Origin: Novosphingobium sp. G106
GTDB lineage: Bacteria; Pseudomonadota; Alphaproteobacteria; Sphingomonadales; Sphingomonadaceae
Reading direction: 5' to 3'
Assembly (NCBI RefSeq): GCF_019075875.1
Contig: NZ_JAHOOZ010000001.1
Coordinates: 1,364,001-1,428,000, forward strand
DNA length: 64,000 bases
In this document: piece after piece, positions 53,034 through 54,323 of the stretch
Layout: each line of letters opens with the position of its first letter
Numbering within the stretch: the first letter of the stretch is position 1
Notes under the pieces: model-generated
What the model saw: only the letters and a program-made list of their open reading frames with translations
What the model was told of the DNA's origin: nothing
Database searches by the model: none
Program-made: the position numbers and the translations under genes

Positions 53034-54323
53034 ATGTCAGGCAATGTGATCGATCGTGTCCGCCAGCTCGTCGTCGACGGGGGCATGTCCAAGGCTGGCC
53101 TCGCCCGCGCCGCAGGCCTCCACGCCAACACGCTGCGCGACTGTACCGAAGACGGGTGGAATCCCACGACCGAAACGCTCGGCAAACTCGAACGCTTCCT
53201 CTTCGCCAATGACGACCGCCCGGTGCTGGCTCCGATCGAGGAGATCATCGACGAGGCGCGCAACGGCCGGATGTTCATCCTCGTCGACGACGAGGACCGC
53301 GAGAACGAGGGCGACCTCATCATCCCCGCGCAGATGGCAACGCCTTCGGCGATCAACTTCATGGCCACCCACGGCCGCGGCCTGATCTGCCTGACCTTGA
53401 CCAGCGAACGCGTCGAGCAACTCGGCCTCGACCTGATGAGCCGCCACAACGGCACGCGGCACGAGACCGCCTTCACCATCTCGATCGAAGCGCGCGAGGG
53501 CGTCACCACGGGCATTTCCGCAGGCGACCGCGCCCGCACGATCAGCGTCGCGATCGACGGCAGCAAGGGCCGCGACGATATCGTCACGCCCGGCCACGTC
53601 TTCCCGCTGCGCGCGCGCGACGGCGGTGTTCTGGTCCGCGCGGGCCATACCGAGGCCGCAGTGGACATCTCGCGCCTCGCCGGGCTCAACCCCTCGGGCG
53701 TGATCTGCGAGATCATGCGCGACGACGGCACCATGGCGCGGCTCGAAGACCTGGTCGGCTTTGCGCGAATGCACGACCTCAAGATCGGCACGATCCGCGA
53801 CCTGATCGCCTATCGCCGCAAGCACGACCACCTCGTCGTCAAGAAGGCCGAACTCGCTTTCAAGAGCCGTTGGGGCGGCGACTGGCGCGCCGTGACCTAT
53901 TACAACAAGGCCACCGGCGACGAGACGATGGCTCTGGTCAAGGGCCGGCCCTCCGCCGACAAGCCGACCCTGGTGCGAATGCACACGCTGTCGATCTTCG
54001 CCGATATCTATGGCGAGGAAAGCGACCGCGGCGAACTGCTCCACCGCTCGATGGAACTCATCGGCGAAGAAGGCGCCGGCGTGATCGTCGTCATCAACCG
54101 GCCCATGCAGCGGCTGATGTCGCGCTCGATGGAGATCAAGGCCAGCGTCCGCGCCGGCGAGATGGCGCCGCCGCTCGAGGAGCTGCGCGACTATGGCGTG
54201 GGCGCCCAGATCCTCACCGAGCTCGGCGTGCACGACATGATCCTGCTGACCAACACGCACCATTCGCTGGTCGCGCTCGAAGGCTACGGCCTGTCGATCG
54301 TCGGCGAACGGGCAGTCGTCTAA
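53034..54323 (+). CDS. ribB: 3,4-dihydroxy-2-butanone-4-phosphate synthase with N-terminal HTH and degenerate GTP cyclohydrolase II domain
   Basis: 429 residues from ATG 53034. Residues 17-55 form an XRE-like helix-turn-helix (SKAGLARAAGLHANTLRD). Residues 64-270 are the RibB domain: acidic loop DDEDRENEGD, THGRGLICL, SAGDRARTI and TPGHVFPLRARDGG, all intact. It converts ribulose-5-phosphate to the four-carbon riboflavin precursor. The last 150 residues resemble GTP cyclohydrolase II (YGVGAQIL remains), but the zinc Cys residues of ECLTGDxxGSxRCDC are lost (here TLSIFADIYGEESDRG), so that activity is surely absent. First gene of a rib operon. Confidence 0.93.
   Translation: MSGNVIDRVRQLVVDGGMSKAGLARAAGLHANTLRDCTEDGWNPTTETLGKLERFLFANDDRPVLAPIEEIIDEARNGRMFILVDDEDRENEGDLIIPAQMATPSAINFMATHGRGLICLTLTSERVEQLGLDLMSRHNGTRHETAFTISIEAREGVTTGISAGDRARTISVAIDGSKGRDDIVTPGHVFPLRARDGGVLVRAGHTEAAVDISRLAGLNPSGVICEIMRDDGTMARLEDLVGFARMHDLKIGTIRDLIAYRRKHDHLVVKKAELAFKSRWGGDWRAVTYYNKATGDETMALVKGRPSADKPTLVRMHTLSIFADIYGEESDRGELLHRSMELIGEEGAGVIVVINRPMQRLMSRSMEIKASVRAGEMAPPLEELRDYGVGAQILTELGVHDMILLTNTHHSLVALEGYGLSIVGERAVV

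Follow-up and report, generated by a model that had tools for sequence, protein, structure and literature searches.

Several metabolic enzymes, BirA, PutA and NadR among them, repress the genes of their own pathway, and we know of no phage promoter–operator module that is shared with any of the three. Here, we describe an unrelated enzyme for which the same regulatory logic may be proposed: a riboflavin-pathway protein of Novosphingobium sp. G106, encoded within a 64,000-nucleotide stretch of its genome (hereafter the window), in which a helix-turn-helix (HTH) domain precedes RibB (dihydroxybutanone phosphate, or DHBP, synthase) and a RibA-like domain, RibX. RibB provides riboflavin's four-carbon precursor, and the fusion RibBX was reportedly named by Brutinel et al. 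in 2013. To our knowledge, neither the Shewanella nor the Aeromonas RibBX has an N-terminal HTH. According to the part of the source available (PMC10012899), the Aeromonas protein complements ribB and not ribA, and the X domain of the Shewanella protein controls the adjoining RibB through an as yet unknown mechanism. As in these two and in the Acinetobacter baumannii RibBX (PDB code: 6mnz), the window protein combines RibB with a zinc-less RibA-like domain, and a true RibA is encoded separately; in contrast to the window protein, the 6mnz chain begins where it aligns, at window residue 65, and it, therefore, lacks an N-terminal HTH. Two regulators are comparable by description. The archaeal HTH–riboflavin kinase RbkR (Rodionova et al. 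2017) is listed as both regulator and enzyme and is, like the window protein, a riboflavin-pathway enzyme fused to an HTH, although it is a different enzyme from a different domain of life (PMC8305020, in the portion available). In BzdR, likewise, an enzyme fold, one like that of shikimate kinase, has acquired a DNA-binding domain; its ancestral activity is lost, whereas the RibB motifs are intact here, and its abstract mentions no phage operator (PMC3602430, seen in excerpt). Our search of the open-access literature, with subscription papers outside its reach, brought up no earlier description of a RibB with an HTH among the papers listed, and the accessible portion of a 2025 review of riboflavin regulation (PMC12542839) contains neither ‘helix-turn-helix’ nor ‘autoregul’. 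The enzyme-repressor would thus be of a known kind; the apparently unusual part is its phage promoter–operator module.

We propose, with a probability of about 0.8, that the locus encodes a RibBX with a Cro-like head and phage-type operators, most likely captured from a phage, and that the protein represses its own operon. The proposal draws on what can be read in the sequence itself, namely the domains, the operator and its uniqueness, the co-occurrence of operator and HTH, and a phage counterpart. The relevant features are as follows:

52970–52975, + strand: TTGACA, candidate −35 element, overlapping the stop codon of the preceding gene, for enoyl-CoA hydratase
52981–52987, + strand: AATGTGA, the O2 half-site, placed 31 bp before the corresponding O1 half
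53003–53018, no strand assigned: O1, the perfect palindrome TCACATT-TC-AATGTGA (53002–53019 with its extended arms), proposed operator
53034–54323, + strand: HTH-RibBX gene, 429 residues, a real open reading frame (ORF)
53034–53210, + strand: Cro/XRE-type HTH domain, residues 1–59, from profiles, conservation and fold match
53043–53049, + strand: a third AATGTGA, weak candidate O3, in codons 4–6 of the gene and 31 bp after the second
53118–53147, + strand: LHANTLRDCT, presumed recognition helix, residues 29–38
53238–53813, + strand: RibB (DHBP_synthase) domain, residues 69–260, from Pfam, NCBIfam and invariant motifs
53847–54308, + strand: RibX, GTP cyclohydrolase II-like, without zinc ligands, residues 272–425

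O1 has the sequence TCACATTTCAATGTGA and ends 15 nt before the ribBX start codon; O2 is present in the window as a half-site only, and AATGTGA recurs at 52981, 53012 and 53043, with a period of 31 bp. Across the 7.2 Mb genome, O1 is the single match to TCACATTNNAATGTGA at two or fewer mismatches (the reversed TCACATTNNAATGTGA gives four matches per strand), and within the window, its 18-bp form is matched once at up to three mismatches, compared with 0.06 expected. The site also accompanies the HTH in relatives. At up to three mismatches, TCACATYNNRATGTGA lies within 150 bp upstream of all 69 HTH-bearing ribBX loci, own gene included (31 exact, 18 with one mismatch, 18 with two and 2 with three), and before none of 20 HTH-less ribBX loci (8 from the same family and 12 from others; best matches, 4–7 mismatches); Markov-shuffled upstream regions reach this threshold in 2.4%. 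A second set, overlapping the first in species, comprised the best 80 loci of a profile scan, and all 79 with enough upstream DNA pass (50, 19, 8 and 2 with none, one, two and three mismatches, respectively). Once near-identical upstream regions had been removed (126 of 148 kept), 118 of the 126 had O1, again at up to three mismatches, 5–25 nt before the start, and in 110 of these, its end is 12–15 nt away from the start codon. In the 118 aligned upstreams, conservation rises to 2 bits within O1 and stays near 0.05–0.1 bits in most columns on either side, except at the O2 half-site; RATGTGA is found upstream of O1 in 94, mostly at −24 to −21. Since the genes upstream of ribBX vary among 17 loci inspected, the conservation of O1 does not reflect shared synteny. 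At one mismatch or fewer, the site occurs in 69 of 119 family genomes, once in 66 and twice in 3, compared with 2 of 119 for a reversed-pattern control. Thirty of these 72 sites were inspected, and 28 precede an HTH-ribBX (26 by motif; L107 and L124 by ORF), the exceptions being L104 and L120.

It is conceivable that a different regulator binds O1 and that the HTH serves other DNA, protein contacts or dimerization, and the half-sites TGTGA and TCACA do resemble those of CRP-like regulators; however, the inward-facing half-sites of the window are separated by 15 bp as opposed to the 6 bp of CRP. Moreover, an O1-type site occurs just once in the own genome, HTH and operator are absent together, and the same operators are found at the starts of the Cro-like homologues of phages (see below), all of which makes a different regulator unlikely. 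The joint absence is seen in the family itself: all 8 HTH-less ribBX copies lack the operator, and no such HTH is found anywhere in their genomes at E ≤ 0.01.

The operator we propose is placed at what appears to be the promoter. In 60 of the 118 aligned upstreams (type A), TA directly follows O1, and in 41 of these 60, TTG lies 6–8 bp before it, so that O1 would constitute the −35/−10 spacer; the start codon would then fall at the transcription start. A Shine–Dalgarno-like tetramer is present in 2 of the 60 and, at the expected place, in 9 of all 118, compared with 38 in a control stretch. In the other 58 (type B, to which the window belongs), TTG is at −34 to −31 of O1 in 32 and TA at −9 to −7 in 26, with the O2 half-site between the two and O1 following the candidate −10 box; the TTG background is 3.8 of 118 per span of three positions (largest, 8). 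Operators at a promoter might also mean that HTH-RibBX activates its operon, as MerR-type activators bind promoter spacers, but the type A spacer filled by the operator has the normal length of 16–18 bp, O1 of type B comes after the candidate −10 box, and what is seen in the phages suggests a Cro/CI switch. Activation is, in our judgement, the least likely of the alternatives considered here.

A further comparison is with phages. A scan of viral contigs with the HTH alignment gave three loci; one of these, L265, encodes a 68-residue Cro-like protein, for which tblastn gives 52% identity over 56 residues and the alignment 46%. Its gene diverges from that of a repressor which, judged by eye, is similar to the S24-type (CI-like) repressor of L258, the only one on which Pfam and PHROGs were run. 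The intergenic DNA of L265 contains TCCCATCTTGATGTGA and TCACATTCAGATGTGT, with one mismatch each and starts 31 bp apart, and none of 2000 mononucleotide shuffles of the stretch reaches one mismatch. A viral search by DNA only, with the O2 half and O1, found six contigs, five of which encode an HTH homologue: L271, L272, L273, L275 (the L265 contig) and L276, L272 and L273 being near copies. The matched site is at the cro start in L272, L273, L275 and L276. In eight cro loci (L265, L276, L271, L272, L273, L270, L258 and L268), a palindrome ends 13 nt before the cro start, a second palindrome 44–45 nt and a TTG 36 nt before it; on alignment, this geometry of O1, second operator 31 bp upstream and TTG is the same as in type A ribBX genes. 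In the phages, therefore, a homologous HTH is accompanied by the same, equally spaced operators. Moreover, the operator changes with the helix, as four independent LHPN helices go with TCACAT-type half-sites and three HRN helices (L258, L270 and L268) with GCATAT, and this is the best sequence evidence that the HTH reads the operator. The phage counterpart resembles a lambdoid Cro/CI switch in that a small HTH protein and an S24-type repressor are encoded divergently, with tandem operators at the promoter; in the window, by contrast, it is a riboflavin enzyme that has the Cro-like part as its head, and the ORF list has no adjacent CI gene. Our best reading of the sequences is that ribBX shares a phage promoter–operator–repressor module. 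Scans of viral sequences with the single Cro-like proteins of L265 and L258 returned only the query itself or one close relative, L270.

The initial annotation had placed an XRE-like HTH in front of an intact DHBP synthase, with a C-terminal GTP cyclohydrolase II domain devoid of zinc cysteines, and each part of this description is supported. By sequence, the N-terminus appears to be an HTH of the XRE/Cro type: including the window protein, HTH_3 is matched by 31 and HTH_31 by 30 of 35 N-termini at E ≤ 0.1 (best, 4.9e-5 and 4.6e-6, respectively), and the pattern A-x-G-L-H-x-N-x-L-R ... W-N-P-T is invariant in all 69 N-termini compared, which come from this genus and from further genera of its family, these having been found via an anchor motif that presupposes part of the pattern, although no locus failed the anchor. 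Averaged over 50 full-length proteins, conservation stands at 0.659 in residues 1–17, 0.894 in the HTH core (18–56), 0.973 in residues 29–37, 0.70 in the linker, 0.895 in RibB and 0.654 in RibX; the HTH core is, therefore, conserved as strongly as RibB, and among the three domains RibX is conserved least. An AlphaFold model of residues 1–69 (predicted local distance difference test, pLDDT, 80) matches the MuB N-terminal domain first in Foldseek, followed by HipB–operator, SinR–DNA, C.BclI and P22 c2, with probabilities of at least 0.95, yet with E of 0.1–0.4 and none at E ≤ 0.001. Neither the sequence nor the fold match points to an N-terminal fold lacking a recognition helix, but DSSP assigns helices to residues 2–14, 20–27 and 46–59 and leaves the expected helix 3 unassigned. 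For the window protein's N-terminus, PHROGs gives only weak regulator matches, and the own genome has no standalone copy of the HTH at E ≤ 0.001.

The HTH is the new part; the remainder is the known RibBX enzyme. DHBP_synthase (PF00926) matches residues 69–260 with 278 bits, TIGR00506 passes its cut-off for the same part, and the RibB motifs DDEDRENEGD and GHTEA are invariant in the 50 proteins, the window protein included; by profile and motifs, the RibB domain is intact. GTP_cyclohydro2 matches residues 272–425 with 122 bits, but in an alignment with the genome's own true RibA (C1:3462014, with HSECLTGD, CDCG and EGRG), the segments HSEC, CDCG and EGRG are all missing from the window domain. 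The protein is, therefore, not a bifunctional RibBA: the zinc cysteines of GTP cyclohydrolase II are absent, and all matches to the six bifunctional RibBA equivalogs in NCBIfam are below cut-off. On the features examined, it is a RibBX, having a RibA-like domain without the zinc and GTP-ring-opening residues, with a true RibA encoded elsewhere. Additionally, 6mnz is the top known-structure match both by sequence and by the fold of the full-length model.

The initial annotation further suggested that the dead domain senses GTP or flavin. This is not supported: RibX is present in RibBX proteins that lack the HTH (PMC10012899, from the part available) and is the least conserved domain, and with the EGRG segment lost, a GTP sensor is unlikely. 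More broadly, RibX or the RibB site could sense GTP, ribulose 5-phosphate or flavin and so toggle DNA binding, an idea that is compatible with autorepression, as both can be true together. The listing of archaeal RbkR as gene regulator and enzyme (PMC8305020, in the portion seen) speaks for it, whereas the lost EGRG and zinc segments, the poor conservation of RibX and its occurrence without an HTH speak against it; we entertain it tentatively. A metabolite (ribulose 5-phosphate or a flavin) might adjust binding through the RibB site.

From these observations, we infer how autorepression might work, the oligomer, the binding, the repression and its polycistronic reach included. Paired HTH domains of a RibBX oligomer would bind O1 and O2, the latter 31 bp, or three helical turns, away and hence presented on the same face of the DNA; the bound oligomer would cover the promoter and block RNA polymerase. 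Once enough enzyme had accumulated, ribBX and probably the downstream ribH would be shut down and a set level held, negative autoregulation replacing the flavin mononucleotide (FMN) riboswitch. The surmise of the initial annotation, that the enzyme may control its own operon, finds strong support at the level of sequence in the single site, its promoter position, the co-occurrence with the HTH and the phage homologues.

A number of observations weigh against this proposal. The window HTH falls below the Pfam cut-off (HTH_3 on the N-terminus alone: E 0.0037 and about 17.7–17.8 bits, against a cut-off of 23), DSSP assigns no third (recognition) helix in either the N-terminal or the full-length model, and the latter is mediocre (pLDDT 70.7; predicted template modelling score 0.47). 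At the ribBX promoter of the window, a sigma-70 scan finds nothing above the threshold of the tool, and there is no good −10 box. O1 at up to three mismatches is missing 5–25 nt before the start in 8 of the 126 aligned upstreams, and 50 of the 119 family genomes have no site at one mismatch or fewer. Among the phages, the matched site of L271 lies approximately 0.75 kb from cro, although the cro start itself has operators with one and two mismatches; L266, a phage relative, has no such operator, and that of L267 is weaker. The reversed pattern also matches 5 viral contigs, so that the number of matches is not above chance; what counts is, therefore, the association with the homologue, which is encoded by none of those five. 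Finally, the HTH tree, in which phage and ribBX rows are intermixed, has too few columns (57) to decide the direction of transfer. To this extent, the tree leaves room for the reverse, that phages took HTH and operators from ribBX, but the phage versions are more diverse (34–46% to L265) and include Pseudanabaena phage Pan3 and two operator types, while the ribBX versions are confined to one bacterial family among the genomes searched. The reverse transfer is, accordingly, improbable, and we infer capture of the module from a temperate phage as the most likely course.

In an order-wide scan of 147 genomes, 85 of 86 own-family genomes match at 1e-40, and 77 of these 85 matches start at residues 1–8 and run through the HTH. 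Other families of the order match in 59 of 61 genomes, and none of the 58 matches listed starts before residue 42. At the level of the class, 141 of 192 genomes match at 1e-60, with starts at residue 1 in the own family only; six matches starting at residues 25–47 have no such HTH by profile search, and a fusion outside the family was not seen in the 141 matching genomes. An HTH-alignment scan found at least 586 relatives, of which the best 80 were kept. The genera given in the titles are Novosphingobium, Sphingomonas, Croceibacterium, Erythrobacter, Altererythrobacter and Blastomonas, along with metagenome-assembled genomes of Sphingomonadaceae, Sphingomonadales and Erythrobacteraceae, some others being labelled only Pseudomonadota or Proteobacteria; one record labelled Actinobacteria is probably a label error. 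In a tree of the RibBX body, 7 of the 8 HTH-less family members are nested within the HTH clade (fork 99/97), G103 lying outside; five label changes are needed, four of them forced by well-supported branches. One gain of the HTH followed by several losses would fit this tree, which does not prove it.

If the module is shared as we suggest, a phage switch of promoter, tandem operators and repressor domain has been coupled whole to a housekeeping enzyme, and this suggests how riboflavin synthesis may be controlled in a bacterial group where the FMN riboswitch was not found. The joint absence of domain and operator in several members of one family, together with the helix-linked change of operator in phage relatives, offers a small system for testing how the DNA code of a regulator evolves. 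With the operator and the recognition helix common to enzyme and phages, their regulatory circuits may meet: HTH-RibBX could bind and weaken the early promoter of an incoming phage that has TCACAT operators, and the Cro or CI proteins of such prophages could throttle the host riboflavin operon. We consider this rather unlikely; were it true, the enzyme would double as an immunity repressor.

Further sites and copies deserve mention. In-gene AATGTGA is a minority feature, RATGTGA being found 38–40 from the O1 start 20 times in the 118 aligned upstreams. L104 (G081) has an exact O1-type palindrome at 1501–1516, away from ribBX and approximately 95 bp before an ORF for an 84-residue membrane protein with a weak match to nicotinamide mononucleotide transporters (PnuC family; E 0.022), a possible second target. 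The one site of the HTH-less G063 is some 470 kb from its ribBX. We do not claim a wider regulon, as the own genome has one site and those of L104, L120 and G063 are the sole strays noted. Among viral contigs, L274 has three exact TCACATYNNRATGTGA sites 30 bp apart (2725–2800), with no recognized Cro-like HTH homologue in the 7.3 kb examined, and exact O1-type sites lie beyond the cro–cI region at 9290–9305 of L275, 7644–7659 of L271 and 1502–1517 of L276, the last just past the end of a CI-like gene. G048, of the same genus, contains a prophage-like Cro/CI pair (L258; G048:C44) with an HRN-type Cro and GCATAT operators as well as an HTH-RibBX with TCACA-type operators, so that two specificities coexist. 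The genome of the window also encodes a second RibBX, of 368 residues, without HTH or O1 (L002 1474–2580; G000:C1:3254430–3255536); its neighbours, judged by eye, are AMP-ligase, flavin reductase and P450 ORFs, and it may feed a flavin-dependent catabolic cluster.

None of the Rfam RNAs, including the FMN riboswitch (RF00050), is found in the window at the gathering score. Under stricter filters, which lose weak matches, the riboswitch is found in none of 41 genus genomes and in 35 of 192 class genomes, the 3 own-family genomes among the latter having none; with no RF00050 near the rib genes, FMN-riboswitch control was rejected. Downstream of ribBX, the window contains:

54329–54856, + strand: ORF of 175 residues, no Pfam match at cut-off
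54859–55262, + strand: ribH, lumazine synthase, its frame broken near 55101 in this assembly
55273–56229, + strand: aldo/keto reductase, which also follows ribH in the relatives L104 and L120

The 175-residue product looks CYTH-like and is left unassigned. The only ribH match of the genome is split over two frames (PF00885 positions 3–83 and 84–138); because ribH is normally essential, the break is likely to be an assembly or sequencing error.
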